24,118 nt of DNA. Origin: a virus. Made by a program: the position numbers and the translations under genes. The notes beneath the pieces are model-generated. The model was not told the origin of the DNA. It was given only the letters and a program-made list of their open reading frames with translations, and ran no database searches. Location: positions 1-24,118 of IMG/VR virus record IMGVR_UViG_3300014868_000010. One strand, 5' to 3'. Shown piece after piece: positions 3,914 to 23,507 of this stretch (within the stretch, counting starts at the first letter, position 1; every line of letters begins with the position of its first letter).

Positions 3914-5040
3914 CCCATGACACCACCACAGGCACCGCCCGCTCCCGCCTCTCCCAGGGCCACCCCGGGCAACGCACCGCCACCAAGGCCCGCCTCGCCA
4001 TCTCCGGCGCCTCCGGTGCGGGCAAGACGTGGACGGCCCTCTCCGTCGCCGAGGTGCTCGCCCCATCCGGGCCCACCGTCATCATCGACACCGAGCCGTC
4101 CGACCAGGACACCGGGGCCGCCGAGCTGTACGCCGACCGCTTCCGCTTCGACACCATCAGGTGGGCCCCTCCGTTTGACCCTCGTGACCTCGCCCTCACC
4201 ATCCAGGAGCTCGGCGCCAAGCGTGTGCCCGGGTCGCTGTGGCAGGGGGAGGGCGGCTACGACGTGATCGTGGTGGACTCCGCCTCGCACTTCTGGCGGG
4301 GAGAGGGCGGCACGCTCGACATCGCCGACGGCAAGTTCGGCGGCTGGAAGGAGGCCACCCCCATCCAGGACCGCATGGTGGACTCCATCCTCCGCAGCCC
4401 CGCCCACGTCATCGTGTGCACCCGGGCCCGCATGAGCTACGCCCAGGAGCCCGACGCCGGTGGCAAGCAGAAGGTCGTCAAGCTCGGCATGGCGCCCGTC
4501 CAGCGGGACGACCTCGAGTACGAGTTCCAGGTCGTGGTCCAGATGGACCAGGCGCACACCATCGAGATCGGCAAGACCCGCTGCGCCACCCTGGCCGGGA
4601 TGCAGTTTCGCCAGAACGATCAGGCCCGCTTCGCTGGCATCTTGAAGGAGTGGCTGGACGGAGGCGTGGAGCTGATCACCCAGACGCAGGTGGACGAGCT
4701 TGTGGACGCCTTCAACGCCCTGGAGGGCCCGCCCAAGGTGGCCGCCAAGACGGCCTTCGTGGACGTCTTCGGTGCCCCCGGGGCTCTGCCGGCGGAACGT
4801 CTCGCCGAGGCTGAGGCGTGGATCGCCGCCCGAGTGGCGACGGACCTTGCCAGCCCCCCCGCTACGGCCCCGGAGGAGGCCCCTCCTGTTGACGAGGAGC
4901 CGGGCAACGACCCGGAGGCCCCCACTGGGCACCCAGAGCCTCCTGCGAGCTCTGAGGACGCTAAGGCCGCCGCCGACGAGAAGGCGGACAGCGCCATCGC
5001 CCGGGCCAAGGCCAAGGCGAAGGCGTCCACAGCGTCGTGA
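3910..5040 (+). CDS. Sak4-like RecA-fold ATPase (AAA_24), 376 aa
   Basis: Predicted ATP-dependent single-strand annealing or recombination protein of the Sak4 type. Walker A is GASGAGKT at 33-40. Walker B is YDVIVVDS at 117-124. Between them a strand ends in an IIDTEPSDQD motif, typical of this family where the bound adenine is contacted. Core length of about 240 residues fits. A C-terminal extension (about 240-376) starts with a helical segment and ends in an acidic, Pro/Ala-rich linker and a Lys/Ala-rich tail, perhaps contacting DNA or SSB. GAGGAG at 3899-3904 provides a ribosome binding site. Co-occurrence with the Gam/Gp157-like gene supports a recombination role. No RecT-type annealase or exonuclease was seen nearby. 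Confidence 0.75.
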   Translation: MTHDTTTGTARSRLSQGHPGQRTATKARLAISGASGAGKTWTALSVAEVLAPSGPTVIIDTEPSDQDTGAAELYADRFRFDTIRWAPPFDPRDLALTIQELGAKRVPGSLWQGEGGYDVIVVDSASHFWRGEGGTLDIADGKFGGWKEATPIQDRMVDSILRSPAHVIVCTRARMSYAQEPDAGGKQKVVKLGMAPVQRDDLEYEFQVVVQMDQAHTIEIGKTRCATLAGMQFRQNDQARFAGILKEWLDGGVELITQTQVDELVDAFNALEGPPKVAAKTAFVDVFGAPGALPAERLAEAEAWIAARVATDLASPPATAPEEAPPVDEEPGNDPEAPTGHPEPPASSEDAKAAADEKADSAIARAKAKAKASTAS

Positions 5041-5042
5041 CC

Positions 5043-5067
5043 GCCGGGTGGGATAGACCTACCCGGC
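5043..5067 (+). terminator. Hairpin between Sak4-like and initiator genes
   Basis: A 10-bp stem pairs 5043-5052 (GCCGGGTGGG) with 5058-5067 around the loop ATAGA, with one G-T wobble. It lies directly after the TGA at 5038-5040. There is no T-tract, so it could be an attenuator, mRNA stabiliser or protein-binding dyad rather than a terminator. Confidence 0.4.
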
Positions 5068-5100
5068 CCCAACCGCCTCTCCCTCACCCCGAGGAGGCCC

Positions 5101-6021
5101 ATGAGTGTCGCCGCCCTTGACTGGGTGCTGAACCACAGTCGCACGACTGGCGCCGAGCGCATGGTGCTCGTCAGCCTCGCCAACCACGCCGGGGGCGAGC
5201 CCGTAGGCGACCCGCCCGCATGGGAGTCCTGGCCGGGCGTCTCGCTCATCGGGACCGAGGCCGGGCTGCGCCGGGACCGCACCACGTCCGACGTGCTCAG
5301 CCGTCTCGTGGAGGTGGGCGCCATCGAGCGCCTGGTCAACAGCGCCCCCGACCCCCGCCTCGCCGCCAACCGCCGCACCAACCTGTACCGCATCCTGATC
5401 CGGGCCGGGGAGTCATGCGGGCGTCTCAGGTGCTCGTGGTGCGGCCCCGAGAGGCCCGTCGCCGAGCGACCCCCCAAGCACGCCGGTAGGGGGGCGACCG
5501 CCACCAGGGGCAATGCGACACCGGAAGCTCCTGACCTGGGCGGACAGCCTGTTCTGGGGGGCGCCCGGGAGGGACGCCGCCGGGCGACGGACAAACCAAC
5601 TACTACAACCACAACCCATAACCCCATAACCCCTGGCCCCGTCCCGGGGCCTGGGGGGAGCCCAGACGCCCCCCAGGTTGACCTCGTGCTGGCCAACCCA
5701 ACCCCTGCACGAAAGCAGAAGGCTCCTGCCCAGCCGGAGGCCCGCCCTCACAGCTCCGTGGCGGACAGGCTCGCCCGGGCTGAATGGGAGAGACTCCCCA
5801 CCAAGCCGGTAGCCGGGTTCCTCGCATTGCGGGCCCGGATCGAGGAGGCCCTGGACGCCGGGTACTCCGAGGGCGAGCTCTCCAGGGCTCTGCCGACCAT
5901 CAAGGCGTTTACCCGCAACGGGTTCGACCTGGCGCTCCGCCAGACCAGGGCGGCCCAACCCCAACATGACGAGACACTGGACGAGGGGCGAGAGCTCCCG
6001 TCCGGAGAGGTGCAGCTATGA
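5101..6021 (+). CDS. Winged-helix replication initiator-like protein (DnaD/O-type), 306 aa
   Basis: Residues about 1-100 form a helix-turn-helix domain with the layout of phage initiators: a short N-terminal helix, LVSLANHA, a GTEAGLRRDRTTSDVLSRLV recognition segment, then an IERL...NLYRI wing. A CGRLRCSWC motif at about 109-117 could bind zinc. A low-complexity linker (Thr run, Pro/Gly) follows. The C-terminal 80 residues are helical (AEWERL to LALRQ) and resemble the C-terminal domains that recruit helicase loader. The next gene is a DnaC-like ATPase overlapping by 4 nt, the classic initiator-loader pair. The start uses GAGGAGG at about 5091-5097. The linker DNA at 5591-5634 is AT-richer with tandem repeats and might be the origin. 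Confidence 0.65.
   Translation: MSVAALDWVLNHSRTTGAERMVLVSLANHAGGEPVGDPPAWESWPGVSLIGTEAGLRRDRTTSDVLSRLVEVGAIERLVNSAPDPRLAANRRTNLYRILIRAGESCGRLRCSWCGPERPVAERPPKHAGRGATATRGNATPEAPDLGGQPVLGGAREGRRRATDKPTTTTTTHNPITPGPVPGPGGSPDAPQVDLVLANPTPARKQKAPAQPEARPHSSVADRLARAEWERLPTKPVAGFLALRARIEEALDAGYSEGELSRALPTIKAFTRNGFDLALRQTRAAQPQHDETLDEGRELPSGEVQL
5591..5634. other. AT-richer tandem-repeat patch, candidate replication origin
   Basis: Inside the initiator gene linker, ACAACC occurs twice in tandem (5605-5610, 5611-5616), then CCCATAAC twice in tandem (5615-5622, 5623-5630). The patch is clearly less GC-rich than its surroundings. Lambda-type phages carry the origin inside the initiator gene. The repeats also encode a Thr-rich linker, so coding bias is an alternative. 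Confidence 0.3.
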
Positions 6022-6668
6022 CCCGCACGTACGACGAGCCCGAGGGGCCCATCGACCGAGACACCATCAACGCCTACGTGGACGAGATCATGCAGGGCTC
6101 GTGGGACCTGGCCTGGCAGGCGGCCATCCCTGTCCGCTTCCGCAACGCCAGCCTCGGGGCGCTCCCCCGGGAGGTGCGGGACCCGTGTCACCGCTGGGCG
6201 GAGGCGTGGGCGCACGACAGCCCGGAGGCCGGAGCTCTCCTGCTGATCGGCCCCGTGGGCACCGGGAAGACCTACGCCGCCGTGGCGACCGCCCGGGAGT
6301 ATGAGGTGCCGCTGTTCGTGCCGGTGGTCGAGCTGTTGGACGCCCTCCGCCCGGGGGGCGACCTCGGGACCATCACCCGGCAGGGCGTCACCGTGACGGC
6401 CGGGCCCGTCGGCATGCAGCGTTTCGCTGCGGGCGTGGAGACGGGGCTGGTGATCCTCGATGACCTGGGCGCCGAGCGTCCGACGGAGTGGACCGCAGAG
6501 CGCCTGTACGCCATCGTCAACCGCCGGTGGATGGACCAGCAGCCGACCATCGTGACCGCCAACACCACGCCCGAGAAGATGGCCGAGACGTTCGGGCCTC
6601 GCATCTACTCCCGCCTGGTGCACAACGCCACCGTGGTCCGGGTCGGCGGAGAGGACCGCCGCCGATGA
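6018..6668 (+). CDS. DnaC-like helicase loader ATPase, 216 aa
   Basis: AAA+ protein predicted to load the replicative helicase on phage DNA. Walker A is GPVGTGKT at 78-85, Walker B LVILDDLGAERPTEW from 144, and sensor 1 is the TIVTANTT strand with Asn182. An arginine-bearing IYSRL segment near 196-200 resembles the arginine-finger region of DnaC/IstB. The N-terminal 70 residues (helicase-binding region in DnaC) lack obvious cysteines for zinc. Length fits the family. The ATG at 6018 overlaps the initiator stop by 4 nt. The GAGAGGTGCAG before it is a usable ribosome binding site. No replicative helicase of the DnaB type was found in the window, so the host enzyme or a gene elsewhere would be loaded. 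Confidence 0.85.
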   Translation: MTRTYDEPEGPIDRDTINAYVDEIMQGSWDLAWQAAIPVRFRNASLGALPREVRDPCHRWAEAWAHDSPEAGALLLIGPVGTGKTYAAVATAREYEVPLFVPVVELLDALRPGGDLGTITRQGVTVTAGPVGMQRFAAGVETGLVILDDLGAERPTEWTAERLYAIVNRRWMDQQPTIVTANTTPEKMAETFGPRIYSRLVHNATVVRVGGEDRRR

Positions 6669-7027
6669 CCACCGACCTCCTGACCGACTGCATGGAGTGC
6701 GGGGGCCGCTGCCGCTGCCCCCGATGCCACGGGCTCCGCTGGGTGTACGTCACCCCGGCCTACGCCGACCGCTTCGAGCAGCCCGCCCGCCCGGGGCACC
6801 GGGCCGCCCTGCTCAACACCATGTACCCGTGCAAGGACTGCAACGCCGGAGCGTTCTACCGCTGGAGCTCCGGCTGCTTGGAGGCCGACCATGACGCCTT
6901 CAACTGCGACCGCTGCCAGGCTGACCACGAGCGGCCCCGGAGAGGCAACCGGCGGGCCGCCCCTGGGCGACCGCCCCTCCAGGCCGTAGAGGCCGGATAC
7001 CGGGCAGAAGGGCCCGACCATGACTGA
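6665..7027 (+). CDS. Cys-rich zinc-ribbon protein, unknown function, 120 aa
   Basis: ATG 6665 overlaps the loader stop by 4 nt. Three cysteine clusters are visible: a C-x-x-C-x(3)-C-x-C-x-x-C series near residues 9-20, a CKDC at about 56-59 and a CDRC at about 79-82. The repeated C-x-x-C-x-G style of the first cluster resembles DnaJ-type or rubredoxin-like zinc knuckles. The C-terminal 35 residues are Arg/Pro-rich and probably disordered. I do not recognise a family. As the gene directly downstream of the loader it may assist early DNA metabolism, but that is a guess. Confidence 0.65.
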   Translation: MTTDLLTDCMECGGRCRCPRCHGLRWVYVTPAYADRFEQPARPGHRAALLNTMYPCKDCNAGAFYRWSSGCLEADHDAFNCDRCQADHERPRRGNRRAAPGRPPLQAVEAGYRAEGPDHD

Positions 7028-7292
7028 GACGAGGGGGCACTGCAAGGGGTGCGGAGGCCCGGTCCTGTGGGTGCGGACGGAGGCGTCGGGGGCGTGGCTG
7101 TCCCTCGACCCGGAGCCGGTGGGCGAGGGCAACGTGGTGCTCGTGAAGGGCAAGGCCCACGTGCTCACCAAGGCCGAGCTCGCCCCACCGGGCCTGCTCG
7201 ACAGTCTGCTCCCCGGGTCGCCGCCGCCCGGGCCCCGGTACGTGCCCCACCGGGCGACGTGCACCAACTGGCCTGCGAGCAACAAGCGATGA
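7020..7292 (+). CDS. Small zinc-ribbon protein, 90 aa
   Basis: It starts at ATG 7020, overlapping the upstream end by 8 nt. It has CKGCGGPVLWVRT near the N-terminus, then a GAWLSLDPEP...GNVVL strand pair, and ends with HRATC. The C-x-x-C plus H-x-x-x-C arrangement around a small beta sheet is a recurring layout of actinobacteriophage proteins of unknown function. The four ligands could bind one zinc. A Pro/Gly-rich loop lies between the strands and the last ligands. No enzymatic motif is visible. Confidence 0.7.
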   Translation: MTETRGHCKGCGGPVLWVRTEASGAWLSLDPEPVGEGNVVLVKGKAHVLTKAELAPPGLLDSLLPGSPPPGPRYVPHRATCTNWPASNKR

Positions 7293-7477
7293 GGGCCGCC
7301 GACTACTTCGCCGTCGTGACCTCGACCGCCAAGGTGACGACCGGCCCGAACGACGGGCAGGGCATGGCGTACTGCGCCTTCTGCCACGGGCCGATCGCCA
7401 CCGGCACGATCATCCACCGGCTCGTCCCCAAGCGGGGAGGCAGCCACGTCTACGCCCACCAGGGATGCTGGCCGTGA
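7289..7477 (+). CDS. Small zinc-binding protein, 62 aa
   Basis: ATG 7289 overlaps the upstream stop by 4 nt. A CAFCHGP turn at about residues 29-35 is followed by a beta hairpin and an HVYAHQGC ending. The Cys2 plus His/Cys spacing suggests a single treble-clef or LIM-like zinc site. Function is unknown. Its stop overlaps the GTG start of the HNH gene by 4 nt. Confidence 0.7.
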   Translation: MRAADYFAVVTSTAKVTTGPNDGQGMAYCAFCHGPIATGTIIHRLVPKRGGSHVYAHQGCWP

Positions 7478-7794
7478 AGCGCCGCACCCCGCTGAGGGCG
7501 AGCCTGGAGACAGCCCGGGCGTGGGAACGCCGGAGCCGACGAGCTCTGCCTGTCCGCCGCAAGGGCCTCGACCCGGCCCTCGCCAGAGCGTGCTACGTCC
7601 GGGACGGGGGCTGCAAGGTCCGCCCGGAGCTGTACGGCGTGAAGTGCTGGGGCGTCAACGACCCGCACCACGTCCTGCCGAGAGGCCGGGGCGGGCCCGA
7701 CGCCCTCGACAACCTGGTCACGCTCTGCCGGGGCCACCACGACTGGGTGCACGCCCACCCGGAGCTGTCCAAGCCGCTGGGGCTCCTCCGATGA
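7474..7794 (+). CDS. HNH endonuclease, 106 aa
   Basis: GTG 7474 was preferred over ATG 7465 because it overlaps the upstream stop by 4 nt and yields the usual VKRRTPLR start of small phage HNH proteins. The HNH core is clear: DPHHVLPRGRGG with His65-His66, Asn80 in the LDNLVTLC strand, and RGHHDWVH with His88, His89 and His93. Cys47, Cys58 and Cys85 could complete structural zinc binding. The protein would nick or cut double-stranded DNA using a beta-beta-alpha-metal site. Many phages keep an HNH gene next to terminase for packaging; here it lies about 15 kb from terminase on this map, so repair, recombination or homing roles are equally possible. Confidence 0.8.
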   Translation: MKRRTPLRASLETARAWERRSRRALPVRRKGLDPALARACYVRDGGCKVRPELYGVKCWGVNDPHHVLPRGRGGPDALDNLVTLCRGHHDWVHAHPELSKPLGLLR

Positions 7795-7958
7795 CCGCCC
7801 CCGACTTCGACCGGCAGTGCCTCGCCACCACCGATGACACCGAGATTGACGGCGCCATCGAGTTCGGCCACTGGTGCCGCCTGTACGAGGGCCACCTGAC
7901 CGAGGGCATCCCGCACGCCTGCGGGGCCTGCAAGGCCACCTGGGGGATCGAGGAATGA
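7791..7958 (+). CDS. Small zinc-ribbon protein with C-x(4)-GH motif, 55 aa
   Basis: Below the usual size cut-off but convincingly framed: ATG 7791 overlaps the HNH stop by 4 nt and its stop overlaps the next ATG by 4 nt. The visible motif is CRLYEGH followed by H and then CGAC, giving enough ligands for one zinc. A related C-x-x-x-(x)-GH...H pattern occurs in the proteins at 12237 and 21493. Function is unknown. Confidence 0.7.
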   Translation: MTAPDFDRQCLATTDDTEIDGAIEFGHWCRLYEGHLTEGIPHACGACKATWGIEE

Positions 7959-8338
7959 CCGGCCTCCCGATCAGCCACGTGGACCTCCAGGCGACCGTGA
8001 CCGAGGCCCTGCACGTCCTCGGCTGGCGCCACCTCCACGTCCGCCGCTCCATCGGGAAGGGCCGCAAGTGGACTACGGCGACGAACGTGGACGGCTGGCC
8101 TGACCTGTTCTGCTGGCATCCCGTCGCCCGCCGACAGTTGGCCATCGAGCTGAAGGTGCCCCCCGACCGCCTCACCCTCGGCCAGTGGCAGGTGCTCCAC
8201 GACCTCGACGCCGCCGGGGTGGAGACGGCCGTGCTCGACCCGTCAGACCTGACGTGGCTGGGAGCTCTCCTGGCGCCGAAAGGCCCCCGGCTGGAGCTCC
8301 GGATGCTGGAGGCGTTCGCCCCCAAGAACCCGGGCTAA
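7955..8338 (+). CDS. VRR-NUC-type (PD-(D/E)XK) nuclease, 127 aa
   Basis: The protein has the compact PD-(D/E)XK layout of VRR-NUC nucleases. GWPDLFCW carries Asp50, the IELKV strand carries Glu65 and Lys67, and a GQWQVLHDLDAAG helix with Gln78 follows, then a strand with Val/Leu-Asp. Such stand-alone nucleases act on branched DNA and are often next to helicases or recombination genes. Length fits the single-domain family. The ATG at 7955 overlaps the upstream stop by 4 nt. It is the last gene before a small promoter-like gap at 8339-8357. An SF2 helicase lies 2 kb downstream and may be its partner, by analogy with phage replication modules. Confidence 0.8.
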   Translation: MTGLPISHVDLQATVTEALHVLGWRHLHVRRSIGKGRKWTTATNVDGWPDLFCWHPVARRQLAIELKVPPDRLTLGQWQVLHDLDAAGVETAVLDPSDLTWLGALLAPKGPRLELRMLEAFAPKNPG

Positions 8339-8350
8339 CCGGGCTATGGT
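8334..8350 (+). promoter_or_regulatory. Candidate leaderless promoter with degenerate operator half-site
   Basis: CTAACC at 8335-8340 matches the left half of the repeated palindrome, but the right half is lost. TATGGT at 8345-8350 is a -10-like hexamer 7 nt before ATG 8358. There is no Shine-Dalgarno for either ATG 8346 or 8358. Confidence 0.35.
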
Positions 8351-8357
8351 CAGACGC

Positions 8358-8762
8358 ATGGCAGTCATCAACAACTTGGGGCTGGGCGACCTCGATGGTG
8401 AGGCGTTCACCCACACGACCATCAAGCTGACCAACGCCGGGGACGGCCTGTCCGACTCGATGCGAGTCGAGCCGTGCTGGCTCAAGACGGGCGACGAGGT
8501 ATTCGTCATCGTGAAGGCCCACGTGAGCCAGGTGACCGGCAAGCCGTGGGTCGGCAAGGGCGGAGAGACGGGCCTGGAGCGCATCGTGACCTTGAAGGCG
8601 GAGGCCGCCGGGCTCGCCGCCGAGGACCTGGTCGGCCCGGTCATCGCCGAGATGCAGGTGCGGCTGCGAGAGCTCCGAGACGCCGAGGCCGGTCAGGGGA
8701 GCCTGGCGGACCGGATGGGCGACAACGTCACCCCCGTCAAGCCCGAGGAGGGCAGCGAATGA
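8358..8762 (+). CDS. Unknown protein, beta-rich N-terminus and helical C-terminus, 134 aa
   Basis: The start at 8358 fits a transcript that begins at the ATG; an in-frame ATG at 8346 would add four residues but would lie inside the -10 hexamer. Residues about 1-75 are predicted strands with a TGDEVFVIVKAHVSQVTGKPWVG stretch typical of a small barrel; a long helix (about 80-115) follows, then a short acidic tail. One cysteine only, so no zinc site. I recognise no family. The next gene overlaps the stop by 4 nt, so the two are a transcription unit. Confidence 0.65.
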   Translation: MAVINNLGLGDLDGEAFTHTTIKLTNAGDGLSDSMRVEPCWLKTGDEVFVIVKAHVSQVTGKPWVGKGGETGLERIVTLKAEAAGLAAEDLVGPVIAEMQVRLRELRDAEAGQGSLADRMGDNVTPVKPEEGSE

Positions 8763-9058
8763 GCCAGCGCCAGACCAAGACTCGGAACCCGTCGGTGCAG
8801 ACCGTCAACGTCGCCGAGGCCATCGCCGAGCGGGGAGGGTCCGAGGGGCTGCTCGACGCCCTGGCCGACCTCGCCCCGCAGATCGACACGGCCAACAGCG
8901 AGCTCCAGCTGCTCTACGACCGGCGCCTGGCGCTGTGGCGTGAGGGTCGGGAGAGGGCCATCACCCACAAGGTGCTGGCAGCCGCCTCGGGCGTGACGGA
9001 CGCCCTCGTCGTGCAGACCTTGAAGCGTGCCGACAAGGCATTGGCCGCAACGGGGTAG
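8759..9058 (+). CDS. Small helix-turn-helix-like protein, 99 aa
   Basis: ATG 8759 overlaps the upstream stop by 4 nt. The protein is entirely helical. Residues about 64-95 read as a helix-turn-helix: an ITHKVLAAASGVTDALVVQTL segment with the alanine-alanine-x-glycine-val turn expected between the helices. The middle part (LLDALADLAPQIDTANSELQLLYDRRLALWREG) is a likely coiled coil for dimerisation. This makes it a possible DNA-binding regulator and one of the few candidates in the window for binding the repeated palindrome, though nothing shows that directly. Its TAG stop is part of the TAGACG hexamer of promoter copy B. Confidence 0.6.
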   Translation: MSQRQTKTRNPSVQTVNVAEAIAERGGSEGLLDALADLAPQIDTANSELQLLYDRRLALWREGRERAITHKVLAAASGVTDALVVQTLKRADKALAATG

Positions 9059-9085
9059 ACGGGCTAACCCGGGTTAGTCTATGCT
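9056..9085 (+). promoter_or_regulatory. Promoter with palindromic operator, copy B
   Basis: The perfect palindrome CTAACCCGGGTTAG is at 9064-9077, overlapping TAGTCT at 9075-9080. TAGACG at 9056-9061 contains the upstream stop codon but is only 13 nt away, against 17-18 nt in the other copies. TATGCT at 9080-9085 is an alternative -10. The unit downstream starts at 9129 with a Shine-Dalgarno. Confidence 0.55.
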
Positions 9086-9128
9086 GGGGGCTCCCAACCA
9101 AGCACCACGCCCAAGGAGGCACCCAGTC

Positions 9129-9305
9129 ATGACCCGCACCGATTCAGCCCTCGCCCAGCGCCTGCTCAACGCAGTCGGTATCTGCACCATCGACATCAGC
9201 ACCGTTCCCGGCCAGCCCGCCCGCTCGCTGTGGGCCAAGTCCGGCGCCCGCTGGGACAACCTCGATCAGGTCTACGAGACGCTGACCGTCGCCTGCGGGT
9301 CATGA
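9129..9305 (+). CDS. Small unknown protein, first gene of an operon, 58 aa
   Basis: I chose ATG 9129 because AAGGAGG lies at about 9112-9118, a proper distance upstream, while the in-frame ATG 9081 touches the -10 hexamer. The peptide is an N-terminal helix (ALAQRLLNAVGICTIDIS), two short strands and a C-terminal helix. One or two cysteines, no zinc pattern. The next gene overlaps the stop by 4 nt. It leads the unit that contains the helicase. Confidence 0.6.
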   Translation: MTRTDSALAQRLLNAVGICTIDISTVPGQPARSLWAKSGARWDNLDQVYETLTVACGS

Positions 9306-9712
9306 CCGACCTGTGGGTTCCCCGGGAGGTCGTCGCCGACCCGGAACGCCGCCAGGGCGACTGCTTCGCCGCCGCCGCCAAGCTCGTGCTCAGCGACCCG
9401 TCGTTCACCCTCGTGCACGCCAAGGTAACCACCCCCGACAGGGAGACGCCCAGGCGCCCCGACCAGCCCCGTCCCGGGGAGCGCCACGACCACGCCTGGG
9501 CCGAGAAGCGGGCCCCCGTGCGGCTGGAGGACGGCAAGATGCGCAACACCGTCGTTTGCGTGGACCTGTCCTCCGGCCGCCACGTGGCCGCCCCCCGGGA
9601 GCTCTACTACCGGCTCGGCAAGATCGGCAAGACGTTCCGGTACTCGATGGCCCAGGTGCACCAGCTGGTGACCGAGCACGAGCACTGGGGCCCGTGGAGG
9701 GAGCTCCCGTGA
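9302..9712 (+). CDS. Candidate papain/NlpC-like fold protein with Cys-His-Asp triad, 136 aa
   Basis: ATG 9302 overlaps the upstream stop by 4 nt. The arrangement GDCFAAAAKLVL with Cys21 at the start of a helix, HDHAWAE with His64 on a strand, and VVCVDLS with Asp88 on the next strand is the order and type of the papain-like and transglutaminase-like superfamily. A further ELYYRLGKI helix follows. Length is near the minimum for that fold. If active it could be a peptidase, amidase or acyltransferase inside the cell; there is no signal peptide, so it is not an exported lysin. No family was recognised with certainty. Confidence 0.4.
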   Translation: MTDLWVPREVVADPERRQGDCFAAAAKLVLSDPSFTLVHAKVTTPDRETPRRPDQPRPGERHDHAWAEKRAPVRLEDGKMRNTVVCVDLSSGRHVAAPRELYYRLGKIGKTFRYSMAQVHQLVTEHEHWGPWRELP

Positions 9713-10071
9713 CCGACCGCCCGAAGCTCCGCCGCCTCACCGAGGCCCACGGGGAGGACCCGCTCGACTCGACGTGGGAGGTCATCCTCCCGTGGGACGT
9801 CATCGGCTGCGTCTCCGCTCCCCGAGACGGGACGGCCGACAAGCCCCGGGAGTGGGCGTGCTGGTCGTACCGGCCCGACCCTGACGACCCGGTAGACGCC
9901 CTCGCCGACGACGCAGAGCTCGCCGACCTCGGCACCAGCCCGGCCGAGATGGACGACCCGGAGATGGCCGCCCGCATCAGGGCTGGCCGGGCCCGCTTCC
10001 TGTTCGGGGGCTTCACGACCCGCCGGGCCGCCGTCACGTACCTCGTCGCCCACGAGCTCGGCATCACGTGA
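9709..10071 (+). CDS. Unknown acidic protein, 120 aa
   Basis: GTG 9709 overlaps the upstream stop by 4 nt. The first half contains short strands (WEVILPWDVIGCVS; WACWSYRPD), then a strongly acidic stretch rich in Asp, and a C-terminal helix pair including RARFLFGGFTTRRAAVTYLV. No motif recognised. The negative charge could reflect a DNA-mimic or protein-interaction role, which is speculation. The following gene overlaps by 4 nt. Confidence 0.65.
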   Translation: MTDRPKLRRLTEAHGEDPLDSTWEVILPWDVIGCVSAPRDGTADKPREWACWSYRPDPDDPVDALADDAELADLGTSPAEMDDPEMAARIRAGRARFLFGGFTTRRAAVTYLVAHELGIT

Positions 10072-12437: not shown

Positions 12438-13208
12438 ATGCCTGCCTCCAAGAGCCCCGCCGTCCCCGGTCAACGCCGCCTGGAGTACCTGCCGCTCCGC
12501 CAGATCATGAGCGCCCCCCGGAACCCCAACGGCCACGACCTGCCCGCCATCGCCGCCTCCATCCGCCGGCACGGCTTCGTGGAGCCGGTGGTGGTGGACG
12601 AGCGGACCGGGTTCCTCGTGGGAGGCCACGGCCGCCTGGAGGTGCTCGCCGAGATGCGAGACGCCGGAGAGCAGCCCCCCGAGGGCATCGTGGAGCAGGA
12701 GCGAGCCGAGAACGACGTGGCCGCCGAGCCGGAGTGGCTGGCGCCGACCATCCTGGGCTGGGCGTCCCGCTCAGACGCCGAGGCCGAGGCGCTTCTGCTC
12801 GCCATGATGAAGCTCCCCAAGACGGCCGTCGCCTCGATGGACCTCCTCGCCACGATGCTGGACGAGCTCTCGCAGGGCACCGAGCTCGCCCTCGCCGGGA
12901 CCGGGTACAGCCCCGACGACCTCGATGACATCTTGGCTGGCCTGTCCGAGAGCGCACCCCTGACCGAGCTGGAGTACGGGGACAGTCGCAAGAGCGCCTA
13001 CCCCGAGCCGTCGTACGGGGAACGCACCGACAACTACCGCAACAAGCAGGTGCGGGCGATGGTGTTCGACTACCCGCTGGACGATTACGCCCTGGTCGCC
13101 GAGATGGCCGCCCGGGCCCGGGGCGCCTTCGGTGTGCAGTCCAACGCCGAGCTGTTCCAGCGGATGCTGGAGGCGTGGTGCATGCAGAACCCCGAGACGC
13201 CCGCATGA
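12438..13208 (+). CDS. ParB-like nuclease-domain protein, 256 aa
   Basis: The N-terminal 75 residues carry the ParB/sulfiredoxin-like domain: a YLPLRQI strand, NPNGHD, then LPAIAASIRRHGFVEPVVVD and the VGGHGRLEVL motif at 61-70, which is the ParB phosphate-binding box with Gly replacing the usual second basic residue. A helical region follows, and the C-terminal 90 residues are alpha/beta without known motif. Phage ParB-like proteins of this kind occur beside DNA modification genes and are thought to bind or nick DNA or use CTP/ATP. It starts the predicted hypermodification operon and overlaps the dioxygenase gene by 4 nt. Start ATG 12438 has no Shine-Dalgarno, consistent with leaderless initiation. 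Confidence 0.75.
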   Translation: MPASKSPAVPGQRRLEYLPLRQIMSAPRNPNGHDLPAIAASIRRHGFVEPVVVDERTGFLVGGHGRLEVLAEMRDAGEQPPEGIVEQERAENDVAAEPEWLAPTILGWASRSDAEAEALLLAMMKLPKTAVASMDLLATMLDELSQGTELALAGTGYSPDDLDDILAGLSESAPLTELEYGDSRKSAYPEPSYGERTDNYRNKQVRAMVFDYPLDDYALVAEMAARARGAFGVQSNAELFQRMLEAWCMQNPETPA

Positions 13209-14134
13209 GCGACACCGAGCTCGCCCCCGCCGTCACGGTCCGTCTTGCCCCGCTCGACCCGGAGGCCCGCAAGGCCGCACTCGACCTCCTCGGCAAGGGC
13301 GCCGCCCTGGAGCCCCCCGGGGCGATGATCAAGGCGCCGTGCCTCGTGCGAGCCGGAGACGAGCTCGTGGCAGTCGTTCTCAGGATGCCGCCGGGCCCGC
13401 TGGCCTGGGTCCGCAAGGCGCTTCTCGGCTGGCCGTTCGACACGACCACGTACCGTTCGGCTGGCATCAAGAACAACGCCCGGACGTTCGGCTACCTGGC
13501 CCGCAACACGCTCCTGCAGCGTGACGGCTGCCGGGCCTGCCAGGGCTCCCGGCTGGCGCCCGAGGCCCACCACGGCATCGTGGCCCAGGCAGAGCTCCTG
13601 TCCGCCATGCTGGCCGAGGCCGCCCCAGAGCTCGCCGCCCGGGACCGGGCCGCCGCCGAGGCCGTCTCGCCGGAGTGGCGCATGGGCGACAGCCAGTGGA
13701 CCTCCGGGGTGGCGAACAGCACCTCCGTCCTGCCCTACCACTTCGACCGCAACAACCTGGAGCCCGTCTGGTCAGCGATGATCGTGGTGCGGAGGGGCGT
13801 GCGGGGCGGCTACCTCCACGTGCCCGAGCTCGGCGCCTCGTTCCACTGCCGAGACGGAGACGTGGTGTGCTTCCCGGGCTGGCGCTTCGTGCATGGCGTC
13901 ACCCCGGTCAAGATCGTGGAGCCCGACGGCTACCGCATCTCCGCCGTGTACTACTGCGTGGAGCAGATGCGGGCGTGCGGCACCGGAGCCGAGGAGATGG
14001 CCCGGGCACAGCTCGCCCGCACCAACCGGGAGGCCGACACCAGGCCCACCGTGGACCGCATCCCGGCTGCGATCGCCCGCCGAGATGCCGCTTCCAAGCC
14101 CACGGTTGAGGACGACGAGAGTGACGAGCTGTGA
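13205..14134 (+). CDS. TET/JBP-like 2-oxoglutarate/Fe(II) dioxygenase, 309 aa
   Basis: Predicted to hydroxylate the methyl group of thymine or 5-methylcytosine in phage DNA, using Fe(II), O2 and 2-oxoglutarate. The double-stranded beta-helix is visible at about 170-252: YHFDRNN with H179-x-D181, GGYLHVPELG (about 201-210), a GDVVCFPG strand, FVHGVTP with His230, and YRISAVYY with Arg244 as the likely 2-oxoglutarate ligand. An upstream RTFGYLARN segment, CRAC (Cys109, Cys112) and HH (122-123) resemble phage TET/JBP proteins. The ATG at 13205 overlaps the ParB stop by 4 nt and avoids a longer upstream GTG form. No DNA methyltransferase gene lies in the window, so the substrate base is unresolved. 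The assignment is by motif and by neighbours. Confidence 0.72.
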   Translation: MSDTELAPAVTVRLAPLDPEARKAALDLLGKGAALEPPGAMIKAPCLVRAGDELVAVVLRMPPGPLAWVRKALLGWPFDTTTYRSAGIKNNARTFGYLARNTLLQRDGCRACQGSRLAPEAHHGIVAQAELLSAMLAEAAPELAARDRAAAEAVSPEWRMGDSQWTSGVANSTSVLPYHFDRNNLEPVWSAMIVVRRGVRGGYLHVPELGASFHCRDGDVVCFPGWRFVHGVTPVKIVEPDGYRISAVYYCVEQMRACGTGAEEMARAQLARTNREADTRPTVDRIPAAIARRDAASKPTVEDDESDEL

Positions 14135-15069
14135 CCCTGAACCCCGACATGGGCGCCCTCGATGACCTCGCCACCTTCGCCCGCATCGAGGTGGAGAGCC
14201 GAGACGTGGAGCCGTGGGCCGACCTCCTCCGCCACCTGTACATGGAGGACGGGGCGCTGAGCCTGGAGGCCGCCCTGTGGCTGGTGGCGCTCTACAACAC
14301 GTACGACAGCCTGGGCTCCGCCTGCTCAGTGTTCGCCCGCTGGCCGAGCCCGCACGAGCTCCTGACGGCCGCCGACTTCCCCGACAGCGCCCAGTACGAG
14401 TGCACCCAGGAGCGCCGCAACCTCAGGGGCGGCCTCGTGCTGACCCGCCACGCCTCCTACGGAGCTCTCGTGATGGGCGGAGACGGCACCCAGGCCTACT
14501 GGCTCGGCCAGGGCATCCCCCAGCCCGACGTGACGACTGACTGCTGCGACACCGGAGGCGCCGAGGCCGCCTGGGAGCCGATGACCCGCCACCTCCGCCG
14601 AGTGTGGGGCGTGGGCCGCCAGGCCGCCTTCGAGTGGGCCGAGTTCCTCGCCAAGGTGGTTGGGATGCGGCTGACCGCCCCCCACGCCCAGCTGTGGGAG
14701 AGCGAGGGCCCGAGACGGAGCCTGCAGCGCCTCTACGGCAACCCCGACCCGGACCGGGCGTGGCTGGACGAGGCCGCCCTGGAGTGCCGGGCGTGGCTGC
14801 TCTCGCAGGGCATCGACCTCTCGTGGGAGGACTTCGAGACGATCATCTGCGACTTCAACGTGATGCGGGACGGCCGCTACTACCCGGGCCGCCACCTGGC
14901 CGCCCTCCGGGAGGAGATCGACGGCGTGGCCGAGTCGGCGCTCCGGGCCGCCCTGGAGCACGCATGGGAGCAGGTCGTGCCGCCCGAGTGGCAGTGCATT
15001 GACCCGGGCATCGACAAGGCCAAGCTGCCCGTCTACCGGGACTCCGGCCTGATCAGGAGCTCTGCATGA
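14131..15069 (+). CDS. Amino-acid:DNA-transferase-like protein (aGPT-Pplase2, helical glycosylase-like fold), 312 aa
   Basis: The family is known from phage DNA hypermodification operons, where it is predicted to replace a phosphorylated hydroxymethyl pyrimidine's leaving group by an amino acid or related amine. Visible signatures are the ALWLVALYNTYDSLGS helix (48-63), a SAQYECTQERRNLRGG basic segment (86-101), a GVGRQAAFEWAEFL helix-hairpin-helix-like segment (160-173) and a late ETIICDFNVMRDGRYYPG segment (236-253), all helical. Its start, GTG 14131, overlaps the dioxygenase by 4 nt. Neighbours on both sides (TET/JBP-like, kinase) are the expected partners. The chemistry here is inference from the published predictions for the family, and the amino acid attached is unknown. 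Confidence 0.68.
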   Translation: MTLNPDMGALDDLATFARIEVESRDVEPWADLLRHLYMEDGALSLEAALWLVALYNTYDSLGSACSVFARWPSPHELLTAADFPDSAQYECTQERRNLRGGLVLTRHASYGALVMGGDGTQAYWLGQGIPQPDVTTDCCDTGGAEAAWEPMTRHLRRVWGVGRQAAFEWAEFLAKVVGMRLTAPHAQLWESEGPRRSLQRLYGNPDPDRAWLDEAALECRAWLLSQGIDLSWEDFETIICDFNVMRDGRYYPGRHLAALREEIDGVAESALRAALEHAWEQVVPPEWQCIDPGIDKAKLPVYRDSGLIRSSA

Positions 15070-16133
15070 CGCCCGAGGAGACGGCCCGCTTCCTCAACGG
15101 CTACGCCCGCCGCCACGCCGCCGGGGCGTTCGCCACGCCCCTTGCTCGAGAGTTGAACGACGGCAACGTCCGCATCTGGAAGAACCCGCTCGGCCGCACT
15201 GTCGCCGTGACCAAGCGGCTGACCCGGGACAGCGTCCGCACCGACTGGCTCGGCCAGCCGTACACGCTTCCCCGGGGCGCCACCATCGTGACGCACCTCG
15301 GCCGGGAGACGGGCTCCCCCATCCCAGCCGACCTGGACGAGTACCACGCCATCTACGCCTACGCCGACGACCTGGAGCTGACCGCCGGGCTGGGCCGCCT
15401 CGGCCGGGAGGTCACAGCCACGAGGATCAGCGCCGCCTCCGAGATGATCCACTGCTGGGGGTGGCCGGGCACCGCCCGCCCGACGCCCCTCCTCGACGGC
15501 CTGACCGTGGTGCCGGTCGCCACGCACTCGGGCGACCTCCTCAACGCCTGCCGCCGAGAGCTCGCCCGGGCGACGGGGTGGGCCGATGACTACCCGTTCT
15601 ACTCAGACGGCTCCTGGTCGGCGCTGTCCCTCCGGGGCTTCGACCCGGACCCGGCCTGGGGGGTGAAGCCCGCCGAGATGGGCCGCAAGTGGAACGACGC
15701 CCACCCGGGGGCTCTCCGCCGGACGTGCGTCTGGACCGACCTCGCCGACCGCTGCCCCACCCTCGTGCAGATCGCCTCGCAGCTGCCCGGGGCCGGGCTG
15801 GAACGGGTCCGCCTGATGCGCATGAAGCAGGGGAAGCTCGCCCGCCACACCGACATCACCGACAAGGCCAGCGGCCTCCGGGACGGGCAGATCGCCCGCT
15901 TCCACCTGCCCCTGATCACCAGCGAGCTCGTCGCCCTCCACGTCTGGGAGCTGTCCGGGGAGCTCCACAACTGGCACCTCGACGTGGGCGTCTGGTACTA
16001 CCTCGACGCCCGCAAGCCGCACGCCGTCACCCAGGGCGACCCTGACCTCGACCGCATCCACCTCGTCGCCGACGTCATCTGCGACGAGTCCACCCGCTCC
16101 TACCTGGAGGCTTCATGCTCGGCTGCTACCTGA
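15066..16133 (+). CDS. Aspartyl/asparaginyl-hydroxylase-like 2OG dioxygenase with unassigned N-terminal domain, 355 aa
   Basis: The C-terminal third has the beta-hydroxylase double-stranded beta-helix: RVRLMRMKQG, then RHTDITD with H261-x-D263, an RFHLPLIT strand, a WELSGELHNWHLDVGVWYYL stretch, KPHAVTQGD with His319, and Arg330 eleven residues later as probable 2-oxoglutarate ligand. The N-terminal 200 residues are alpha/beta with no motif I can name; a GNAT-like or other group-transfer domain is possible. The gene overlaps the transferase by 4 nt and the kinase by 19 nt, so it belongs to the modification operon. It might hydroxylate the group attached to the base, or amino acid residues of a protein. 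It is the second, structurally distinct dioxygenase in the island. Confidence 0.68.
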   Translation: MTPEETARFLNGYARRHAAGAFATPLARELNDGNVRIWKNPLGRTVAVTKRLTRDSVRTDWLGQPYTLPRGATIVTHLGRETGSPIPADLDEYHAIYAYADDLELTAGLGRLGREVTATRISAASEMIHCWGWPGTARPTPLLDGLTVVPVATHSGDLLNACRRELARATGWADDYPFYSDGSWSALSLRGFDPDPAWGVKPAEMGRKWNDAHPGALRRTCVWTDLADRCPTLVQIASQLPGAGLERVRLMRMKQGKLARHTDITDKASGLRDGQIARFHLPLITSELVALHVWELSGELHNWHLDVGVWYYLDARKPHAVTQGDPDLDRIHLVADVICDESTRSYLEASCSAAT

Positions 16134-16678
16134 TCGGCCAACCTGGCGCCGGCAAGTCCACCCTGTTCCGGGAGGTGACCCAAGGCATTCCGAGCTACGA
16201 GAGCTCCCAGCCGTTCGCCCACACCGTGTACCTGCCCGAGCCGTCGGGGGGCCGCCCGATCGGCGCTCAGCTGGGCCGCCACCACGAGACGTTCCCGGGT
16301 ACCGACCGCCTCAGCATGGCCGTCCAGCCCGACGCCGAGGCGTGGGTGCGCTCCGCCCCCTACCCCGTCATCATCGGCGAGGGCGACCGTCTCGCCACGC
16401 TCGGCTTCCTCACAGCACTGACGGAGGCGTGCGACGAGGGCTGCACCATCCTGTGGCTGGACACGCCCCAGTTGACCGCCAGGGCCCGGGCGACCCGCCG
16501 GGGCTCAGCCCAGACGGAGGCGTGGGTGAAGGGCCGCCGCTCCAAGGTCAACCGGCTGACCGACCTCCTGCCGGTGGTCCGGCTCGACGGCACCCTCAGC
16601 CCGGAGCTTCTCGCCGTGCAGGCCATCGGGGCGTCCCCCGCCTTGCAGGCGCTCCACGCCCTGGTGCCCGGCCTCTGA
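16115..16678 (+). CDS. P-loop kinase of the DNA-hypermodification type, 187 aa
   Basis: Walker A GQPGAGKST at 8-16 sits at the extreme N-terminus, as in small nucleotide and 5-hydroxymethyl-pyrimidine kinases. A GAQLGRHHETFPGTDRLSM segment about residues 49-67 with an FPGTD motif, then YPVIIGEGD (about 83-91) as the likely Walker B strand and an RARATRRG basic lid, match the phage kinase family that phosphorylates hydroxymethyl bases in DNA. ATG 16115 overlaps the dioxygenase end by 19 nt, with GGAGG at 16106-16110 upstream. Role by family: activate the hydroxyl made by the TET/JBP-like enzyme so that the transferase can replace it. Nucleotide or phage-protein kinase are alternatives. Confidence 0.7.
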   Translation: MLGCYLIGQPGAGKSTLFREVTQGIPSYESSQPFAHTVYLPEPSGGRPIGAQLGRHHETFPGTDRLSMAVQPDAEAWVRSAPYPVIIGEGDRLATLGFLTALTEACDEGCTILWLDTPQLTARARATRRGSAQTEAWVKGRRSKVNRLTDLLPVVRLDGTLSPELLAVQAIGASPALQALHALVPGL

Positions 16679-17828: not shown

Positions 17829-18346
17829 TGGCCGCCCCGTCCCTGCCCCGAGTGTCCGTCACCCCTCCCCCCCTTGCGGGGGGAGAGGTGCGCTCGGGCT
17901 CCCTTTCGCTCAACGCCGTGGCGGCCTGGAACACGGGCGTCTACGCCGGGGAGCTCCTGCGCTTCGGCTTCGACGTGGAGCTCCGGGACTACCACGCCCG
18001 GGGCCTCACCCAAGGCCTCCTGTGGGTCGGGCGTCCCGGCCTGGAGCCCGGCATGGTCCGGGTGGAGCTCGACCCGGAGAGCAACAGCCTCCGGGGCGTC
18101 TGGGACCGCTGCGTGGTGGTCCTGTACGGCAGCCAGCTGAACGCCCTTTCGGGCATGGTGCGCCGGAACCTTCGCCGCCTCAGGGAGCACGGCTCCGGCC
18201 GCCCCCCCGAGACGGTGGCGACCCAGGAGGCTTTCCTGGTGCGTCTGCTTGAAGCGCTGGCGGAAGCCGGGGCCAACAACCGATACGACGCAAGCGCCCG
18301 CCCCGAGCGAGCTCTGACCGTCGTGCCTGACTACGAGGAGAACTGA
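17828..18346 (+). CDS. Unknown protein, 172 aa
   Basis: The start could be GTG 17825 or ATG 17828; ATG 17828 gives the common TGATG stop-start overlap. The N-terminal 25 residues are proline-rich, followed by an alpha/beta region with a LLWVGRP strand, a DRCVVVLYGSQLNALSGMVRRNL helix and a C-terminal helix. No cysteine pairs, no membrane segment, no motif recognised. The polycytosine and polyguanine run at about 17867-17885 could form a local hairpin in the mRNA. The next gene starts by a 1-nt overlap. Confidence 0.65.
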   Translation: MAAPSLPRVSVTPPPLAGGEVRSGSLSLNAVAAWNTGVYAGELLRFGFDVELRDYHARGLTQGLLWVGRPGLEPGMVRVELDPESNSLRGVWDRCVVVLYGSQLNALSGMVRRNLRRLREHGSGRPPETVATQEAFLVRLLEALAEAGANNRYDASARPERALTVVPDYEEN

Positions 18347-18903
18347 TGCACAGACTCATCCGCACGGCCGCCGCTGCGGCCCTCGGCCTCTCCGCCCTGT
18401 GGCTGACAACCACAGTCCCGGCTGGGGCCACCAACCCGCCTCCCGTGTGCGAGAACAACGGGCGTGAGTTCACCTACAACCCGTCGACCACCCAGTGCAC
18501 GCCCCCGACCACGGGGGCTACGACGACAGGGGCGACCACCACGGCCGCCACGACCACGACAGCCACCACCCTCCCGCCGACCACCACCGTGCCGCCGACC
18601 ACCACCACCGTGTTCAACTGCGGCCTGTGTGCAGGCCAGTTCGGCACGACCACCACGACCGCCCAGGCCACGACGACCGTTGCCCCTCCGGTGACGACAG
18701 CGCCCCCTACGACGCAACCTGCGCCGCCGCCGCCCGACACAACGCCTGAGCACGTGACCGTCCCCGACGCCCCCGCCACCACAGCTCCGCCGGAGCTTCC
18801 CGTGACCGGCAGCCTGTCGGGCCCGATGGTCGCATGGGCTCTCGCCGCCGGTGCCGTCGGCCTCGCCCTCGTGGCGTTCGCCAAGGCTGTCCGCCGGGCA
18901 TGA
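18346..18903 (+). CDS. Secreted LPxTG cell-wall-anchored Thr/Pro-rich surface protein, 185 aa
   Basis: The protein has every part of a sortase substrate. A signal peptide occupies about residues 1-28 (positive start, alanine/leucine core, VPAGA cleavage site). A short Cys-containing segment (Cys35, Cys51) follows, then Thr/Pro-rich stalks with TTT repeats, a small NCGLC motif (Cys92, Cys95), and the sorting signal LPVTG at 151-155 with a hydrophobic stretch of about 20 residues and a KAVRRA basic tail. Host sortase would cleave between Thr and Gly and join it to peptidoglycan or a pilus. The Thr-rich stalk is likely glycosylated in actinobacteria. A phage gene for a surface protein suggests host-surface alteration, for example superinfection exclusion. 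The start is ATG 18346 (1-nt overlap). Confidence 0.8.
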   Translation: MHRLIRTAAAAALGLSALWLTTTVPAGATNPPPVCENNGREFTYNPSTTQCTPPTTGATTTGATTTAATTTTATTLPPTTTVPPTTTTVFNCGLCAGQFGTTTTTAQATTTVAPPVTTAPPTTQPAPPPPDTTPEHVTVPDAPATTAPPELPVTGSLSGPMVAWALAAGAVGLALVAFAKAVRRA

Positions 18904-22868: not shown

Positions 22869-23507
22869 ATGGCACGCCCCCGCAACAGCTCCCTCCCCGA
22901 CGAGGGCGGGCAGCCCTCCCGCATCAGCGAAGTCGTCCGCTACCGGGAAGCCACCGACGCCGACGGCGTGACCAACATGGTCCCCTTCACCCTCGGCGAA
23001 CAGATAGTCGAACGGGTCCGCACCGGCCTCGACCTCACCGACGCCGCCGCCTCCGCCAACATCACCAAGCAGACCATCTGGAACTGGCGCCGAAGGGGAG
23101 CCCTCAACCGGGCCCTCCTCGCCCAAGGCAAACCCCTCGCCACCGACGACGGAGACGCCTACGTCAAGTTCGTTGATGCACTGGAAAGAGCCGAAGCCGA
23201 GGCAGAGCTCGTCCGCCTCGCCATCATCCAGAGGGCCGCCGAAGGGGGCTTCAAGACAACCCGGGAGACGATCAAGTACGACGCCGCCGGGGACGTCCTG
23301 GAGCGCACCGTCGTGACGGAGGTCAGCCTGCCGCAGTGGACGGCAGCCGCCTGGTATCTGGAGCGCCGCCACGCCCGCAAGTACGGCCGCAAGAGCCAGC
23401 TCGCCGCCGAGGCGCTGTCGGGCCTCCTCCACGCCCACGACGACGGAGACGACGAGGCGCTGCGCACGGAGGCGCTGATCGCCATGGCCCAGGAGTTCGG
23501 CACGTAG
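22869..23507 (+). CDS. terS: Terminase small subunit, 212 aa
   Basis: Predicted DNA-recognition subunit of the packaging motor. A helix-turn-helix lies at about residues 56-76: LTDAAASANITKQTIWNWRRRG. This is followed by a long coiled-coil region with RAEAEAELVRLAIIQRAA and a WTAAAWYLERRHARKYGRK segment typical of phage TerS proteins. The start is ATG 22869 after a TACACT hexamer, with no Shine-Dalgarno; an earlier GTG (22755) would add a Pro/Arg-rich stretch that does not look coding. The next gene is the large subunit. Its TAG stop begins the TAGGCT hexamer upstream of that gene. Confidence 0.8.
   Translation: MARPRNSSLPDEGGQPSRISEVVRYREATDADGVTNMVPFTLGEQIVERVRTGLDLTDAAASANITKQTIWNWRRRGALNRALLAQGKPLATDDGDAYVKFVDALERAEAEAELVRLAIIQRAAEGGFKTTRETIKYDAAGDVLERTVVTEVSLPQWTAAAWYLERRHARKYGRKSQLAAEALSGLLHAHDDGDDEALRTEALIAMAQEFGT

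Follow-up and report, generated by a model that had tools for sequence, protein, structure and literature searches.

The window analysed here is the whole of the IMG/VR virus record IMGVR_UViG_3300014868_000010, 24,118 bases at 71% G+C, and its main feature is a predicted DNA hypermodification island of five plus-strand open reading frames (ORFs) at positions 12438-16678. These encode, in order, a ParB/Srx-like protein (12438..13208), a TET/JBP-type Fe(II)/2-oxoglutarate dioxygenase (TET, 13205..14134), a predicted amino acid:DNA transferase (ADDT, 14131..15069), an AspH-type Fe(II)/2-oxoglutarate dioxygenase (AspH, 15066..16133), and a Ploopntkinase3 P-loop kinase (16115..16678). Neighbouring genes overlap pairwise: stop and start overlap by 4 bases at three of the junctions, and the remaining overlap is 19 bases long. 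The consecutive, overlapping genes and coordinates described in an initial annotation of this DNA were confirmed, and the TET/JBP, ADDT, PF05118 and PF18751 matches all exceed the curated cut-offs. The five-gene island is real and far beyond chance; the weaker Pfam matches are secure because alignments show invariant catalytic residues. In this window the island has early genes around it and lies well upstream of the terminase genes. Six IMG/VR records carry the AspH gene at 99-100% identity, indicating that the phage type recurs across samples.

The first gene matches phrog_620 (1.4e-23), phrog_723 (6e-18) and phrog_498 (3e-22), the last of which is the ParB part of DNA methyltransferases. 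Its homologue is also the first island gene in LilMcDreamy, Nigel, Reprobate, Mako and other phages, and the protein may be a DNA-binding or guide component. The TET protein matches PF12851 (6.4e-9, 35.7 bits against a cut-off of 34.9), and its profile matched TET2 among solved structures (1.4e-5). Residues H179xD181, H230 and R244, the Fe ligands and 2-oxoglutarate-binding arginine of the TET/JBP family, are invariant in an alignment of 11 sequences. A start at 13205 is favoured over a longer ORF from 13175 because of the 4-base overlap with the preceding gene. The predicted activity of this enzyme is the production of 5-hydroxymethyluracil from thymine in DNA.

The third gene encodes a protein matching PF18724, the ADDT family (2.4e-7, 31.1 bits against a cut-off of 26.2). 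The initial annotation had placed it with amino acid transferases and pointed to PF18723-like helical families; the transferase assignment stands, through PF18724 rather than PF18723, which is now named HMUDK_hel in Pfam. For the AlphaFold model (predicted local distance difference test score, pLDDT, 94.6), the only credible fold matches among PDB structures are 8z2m and 8z2n, entries of the 5-phosphomethyl-2'-deoxyuridine glycinyltransferase PUGT, with template-modelling (TM) scores of 0.63-0.69 and a Foldseek E of ~1e-3. The TM scores for 8z2n are 0.63/0.68, and the protein thus has both a PF18724 domain and a PUGT-like helical fold. Searches of the PDB with the single ADDT and AspH sequences returned nothing credible, while profiles and folds did give matches; the ADDT alignment profile matches 25qc (4.4e-23) and 8z2m (2.5e-14). 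The chemistry assigned to the family, in which a phosphorylated hydroxymethyl pyrimidine receives an amino acid, rests on PUGT as a solved relative, and the window ADDT would likewise swap the phosphate on a modified base for an amino acid.

The fourth gene encodes the AspH-type dioxygenase. It matches PF05118, Asp_Arg_Hydrox (9.2e-6, 26.0 bits against a cut-off of 22.6; 41.6 bits for the homologue in LilMcDreamy), and its active-site residues H261xD263, H319 and R330 are invariant among 23 aligned sequences. In the AlphaFold model (pLDDT 92.4) the C-terminal half forms the double-stranded beta-helix expected of the Asp/Asn-hydroxylase-like protein proposed initially. The closest solved folds are L-proline cis-4-hydroxylase (4p7w, 4.6e-10) and a non-haem hydroxylase of a nucleoside-antibiotic pathway (7v4f, 2e-8), followed by proline 3-hydroxylase and human AspH. 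The nearest folds thus act on a free amino acid or within a nucleoside-antibiotic pathway. The window protein has the double-stranded beta-helix in common with 4p7w and 7v4f at about 20% identity, and differs from them by an additional conserved, beta-rich N-terminal half of ~180 residues, for which no relatives were detected.

The last gene matches PF18751 Ploopntkinase3 (1.3e-26), and its GxPGxGK (Walker A), FxGTD and EG motifs are invariant in an alignment of 11 sequences. It has no match to PF18748 or PF18723 and so does not fall among the 5-hydroxymethyl-deoxyuridine (5-hmdU) DNA kinases (HMUDK). Its context in the island suggests that it phosphorylates a hydroxymethyl base in DNA. We rejected an assignment as a terminase small subunit, since the window copy is not beside the terminase, the Tonitrus copy is likewise separate, and a separate TerS-like helix-turn-helix protein is present at 22869-23507 (weak matches below the cut-off). 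In the records of LilMcDreamy, Reprobate, Nigel, Indlovu and others, the Ploopntkinase3 gene is named "terminase small subunit" or "adenylate kinase" and the TET gene "queuine tRNA-ribosyltransferase". Records in which such genes bear the label queuine tRNA-ribosyltransferase or that of a terminase small subunit merit revisiting.

Cultured actinophages have ParB, TET and the P-loop kinase in common, mostly adjoining the terminase, with a variable slot between or beside them. This slot is empty in Nigel, KayaCho and Margaery. In Indlovu it holds a TET-associated glycosyltransferase (PF20691) and a PIG-L deacetylase, with homologues in Donny and Serendipitous, and in Reprobate, Kozie, MakoManhole, LittleMunchkin and Tonitrus an ADDT with a DAO/Rossmann oxidoreductase. 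The flavin assignment is firm in Kozie (DAO, 5e-20) and weaker in the Tonitrus/Mako family, where the similarity is to the N-terminal Rossmann part only. ADDT with AspH fills the slot in LilMcDreamy and in the window, and LilMcDreamy, a Mycobacterium phage, was the only sequenced phage in which tblastn found an AspH-like protein.

AspH is linked to a single clade of ADDTs. Before merging, an alignment-based scan of IMG/VR had yielded 21 loci for AspH and 54 for ADDT. The resulting 51 non-redundant ADDT loci divide into 22 with AspH, 21 with a DAO/FAD-type enzyme (FAD, flavin adenine dinucleotide), eight with neither, and none with both (exact test p = 4e-8). This test ignores shared ancestry, so the ADDT tree is the better evidence for the linkage. 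In the tree, all 22 AspH-linked ADDTs, together with one ADDT having neither partner (contig L070), form one clade on a long branch with 100/100 support; the two flavin-type families, unlike AspH, interchange freely. Wherever the flank is sequenced, AspH is found only with ADDT, including ADDTs down to ~45-50% identity and in varying gene orders. Most loci read ParB-TET-ADDT-AspH-KIN, where KIN is the kinase, and a second group reads ParB-ADDT-AspH-KIN-TET, which shows that ADDT, AspH and the kinase stay together while TET moves. From slot position, linkage and fold, hydroxylation of an appended amino acid is the most economical role for AspH, which we regard as a candidate tailoring hydroxylase of a DNA-attached amino acid; the suggestion that the base is "perhaps further hydroxylated" is on these grounds probable.

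Thymine and 5-methylcytosine (5mC) were both considered possible substrates in the initial annotation, which saw no DNA methyltransferase in the window. That observation holds for C5-methyltransferases, and extends to a 51.8-kb contig with an identical island; PF00145, their family, was likewise found in none of the 12 complete cultured phages with this ParB-TET-kinase chassis. PF00303, the deoxyuridine monophosphate (dUMP) hydroxymethylase family that makes 5-hmdU at the nucleotide level in the M6/ViI-type pathway, was absent from all 17 records searched, the 51.8-kb contig included. In those phages, therefore, no phage enzyme installs the hydroxymethyl group at the level of the free nucleotide, and we propose that TET substitutes for the dUMP hydroxymethylase. 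The other gene types of that pathway, a kinase, an amino-acid transferase and a further tailoring enzyme, are by predicted function all present and linked. For M6/ViI-type phages, both the activity of the 5-hmdU DNA kinase and the part that it plays in the pathway have been established (PMC6449724, PMC7653180).

The L070 contig (47.6% G+C) carries an ADDT 44% identical to that of the window, and neither TET nor AspH was detected in it. The ADDT is flanked by a thymidylate synthase (TS)-like enzyme (7e-21) and by HMUDK_hel (9e-45) and HMUDK_HMUD1 (6.5e-9) proteins, in a TET-free thymidine hypermodification cluster at 4881-9266 of that contig that also includes a 227-aa protein. In alignments, a position that is Asp in CMP hydroxymethylase is Asn in the TS-like enzyme, and the choice of Asn or Asp there decides between dUMP and dCMP (PMC8670742). 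Among solved chains, CMP hydroxymethylases are nonetheless the closest to this TS-like enzyme, and the case for a dUMP-type hydroxymethylase is strong but not conclusive.

The missing C5-methyltransferases and PF00303, together with the setting of the L070 ADDT, favour thymine, which is the likelier substrate and would be oxidised in place by TET. The alternative is that 5mC made by the host or the phage is oxidised by TET to 5-hydroxymethylcytosine, then phosphorylated, aminoacylated and hydroxylated. It gains from the TET profile, whose nearest solved structures are 5mC dioxygenases, from the incomplete genome of the window's phage, and from C5-methyltransferases above the cut-off in four of 37 IMG/VR contigs (G005, G008, G009 and G019), three of them with AspH. 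It sits poorly with the 12 complete phages and the 51.8-kb contig, with an ADDT structurally closest to a 5-phosphomethyl-deoxyuridine transferase, and with a clade member beside 5-hmdU kinases and a dUMP-type hydroxymethylase. The choice of base thus leans towards thymine, and we retain 5mC as an unlikely rival. A correspondence between TET subtype and methyltransferase was considered and dropped, as PF00145 is missing from G006 (103 kb) and G007 (62 kb), both of them late-TET contigs, and present in the early-TET contigs G008/G009.

The amino acid may also differ from that of the characterised relative. PUGT of phage PaMx11 (gp46) has the fold and most invariant residues in common with the window ADDT. 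At 18 ADDT positions the AspH clade is almost invariant for one letter and the flavin clade for another, and at ten of the 18 (window positions 27, 30, 59, 164, 168, 235, 239, 244, 255 and 256) PUGT, read by eye from the alignment, has the flavin-clade letter whereas the window's clade has switched. Examples in the AspH clade are Q164 for W, E168 for K and H255 for D. At these three positions the window protein and 22 members of its clade carry Q (L in one case), E and H, and because the W, K and D of PUGT and the flavin clade are absent, we do not file the window ADDT as a glycine transferase. A different amino acid is predicted from these switches, such that flavin-clade ADDTs would use glycine like PUGT and AspH-clade ADDTs another amino acid.

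If ADDT did transfer glycine, hydroxylation of its alpha-carbon by AspH could collapse the adduct to 5-aminomethyl-uracil and glyoxylate, with AspH serving as an iron-dependent substitute for a flavin lyase. AspH and the flavin oxidoreductases do fill one slot and are mutually exclusive, and flavin-dependent lyases were reportedly among the enzymes that trim appended amino acids in the work of Lee et al. in 2022. This scenario is a live rival but quite improbable given the fixed differences of AspH-clade ADDTs from PUGT and the flavin clade, which suggest another amino acid, and given that enzymes hydroxylating ring carbons of amino acids are among the folds closest to AspH. That AspH hydroxylates a protein of the phage or its host, or some other small molecule, and is merely carried along in the operon is very unlikely: PF05118 does include peptidyl Asp/Asn hydroxylases and the fold matches include structures of human AspH, but AspH occurs only with ADDT despite ADDT divergence and gene-order changes, and in a slot used by other base-tailoring enzymes.

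The gene identities, catalytic residues, folds, strict linkage and residue switches are shown by the analysis, and from them we infer a route: its reactions, their order, the base, the amino acid and the biological role. TET would oxidise the thymine methyl group in phage DNA to give 5-hydroxymethyluracil, the P-loop kinase would phosphorylate the hydroxymethyl group, ADDT would put an amino acid, though not glycine, in place of the phosphate, and the AspH-type dioxygenase would hydroxylate the appended amino acid. The ParB-like protein would presumably bring these enzymes to the DNA. By analogy with known hypermodified phages, the purpose would most likely be shielding of the phage DNA from host nucleases. 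We put at roughly 0.6 the probability that this cassette belongs to an actinobacterial-type phage and hypermodifies thymine after replication, with TET, kinase, ADDT and AspH acting in series. Oxidation (TET), phosphorylation (kinase) and amino-acid transfer (ADDT), as proposed initially, are supported by Pfam matches and catalytic residues. A broader and more tentative proposal, at slightly worse than even odds as a whole, joins two parts: a pathway opened and closed by Fe/2-oxoglutarate enzymes, in which TET-oxidised thymine receives a side-chain-bearing amino acid from the switched ADDT and AspH hydroxylates it, and a ParB-TET-kinase chassis whose slot takes a flavin enzyme, a glycosyltransferase or AspH as alternatives.

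Several observations weigh against the serial thymine pathway or parts of it. The kinase is its weakest link, as its family is unlike the characterised 5-hmdU kinases and it is retained in the ADDT-free phages Nigel, Margaery and KayaCho, a pattern left unexplained by the simple pathway, so that it may serve some purpose other than activation for ADDT. The C5-methyltransferases in the AspH-type islands of G005 and G008/G009 (the latter two look like one phage) are genuine, and 5mC may serve as the substrate there. The mutual exclusivity of AspH and flavin enzymes partly reflects the single origin of the AspH clade. The L070 ADDT keeps the clade switches in a contig in which AspH was not detected, and the switches therefore do not require AspH. 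Finally, the failure of a peptide-pattern scan of 84,980 bacterial and archaeal genomes to find relatives of the AspH family counts in favour of the pathway and leaves a bacterial origin of the family unsupported in those genomes, but such scans can overlook divergent relatives, bacterial ones included.

Other features of the window and its relatives were also recorded. The host is probably an actinobacterium, judging from G+C content, the relatives, and a protein at 18346-18903 with a signal-peptide-like start, a Thr/Pro-rich stalk, and a C-terminal LPVTG followed by a hydrophobic and basic tail. This is the pattern of a sortase-anchored surface protein, and it has no Pfam match. Directly after the island lies a gene for a DUF932 protein, a common phage family (16776-17828; PF06067, 5.6e-42). 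A 261-aa protein at 386-1171 has no Pfam or PHROG match and resembles UDP-sugar glycosyltransferases by eye alone. In a longer contig of the same phage type (L031), a PIG-L deacetylase and an S-adenosylmethionine methyltransferase are encoded at 8543-9765, a few kb before the start of a likely tape-measure gene, and possibly decorate virion glycans. One small contig (L012, 62-2576) has an ADDT 73% identical to that of the window, yet an AspH at 99% and a kinase at 100%, reflecting either recombination within the island or a chimeric contig.

The function proposed initially was largely right and the choice of base could be refined, and the view that the exact gene combination may be new proved wrong. 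Genes 1-5 of LilMcDreamy (NC_051582.1, 1-4333) are the same five genes in identical order, as in many IMG/VR contigs, with AspH 43% and ADDT 51% identical to those of the window and a TM score of ~0.9 between AspH models. Their annotations read ParB-like, queuine tRNA-ribosyltransferase, hypothetical protein (twice) and terminase small subunit, and they lie at the end of the genome next to the gene for the large terminase subunit, whereas the window island is among early genes. LilMcDreamy grows on M. smegmatis, as do Reprobate, Nigel and Indlovu with other slot contents, which makes the DNA adducts of TET-bearing actinophages, and TET action on thymine, testable on one host. If the chassis-with-slot model is right, it predicts which phages carry which modified base. 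The pathway core was already known, and our search of the literature found no chemistry reported for an AspH-containing variant. An AspH-type hydroxylase finishing the pathway therefore appears to be an undescribed variant and a candidate addition to the phage enzymes that sculpt amino acids on DNA bases; what is new comes from the relatives, namely the shared chassis with its exchangeable slot, the mutual exclusion of AspH and flavin enzymes, the single ADDT clade and its residue switches. The mycobacteriophages Indlovu and Donny, known for TET-TAGT glycosylation islands, have the window-type ParB-TET-kinase chassis beside the terminase, with a glycosyltransferase and a PIG-L deacetylase where the window has ADDT and AspH. 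In Rhodococcus phage Tonitrus, ParB, TET, aGPT-Pplase2/ADDT, the kinase and a fifth gene were described as a predicted thymidine hypermodification system (PMC11955845). The first four are common to both phages, and the fifth enzyme of Tonitrus, encoded after the kinase by gene 8, is Rossmann/FAD-like where the window has the AspH dioxygenase instead.

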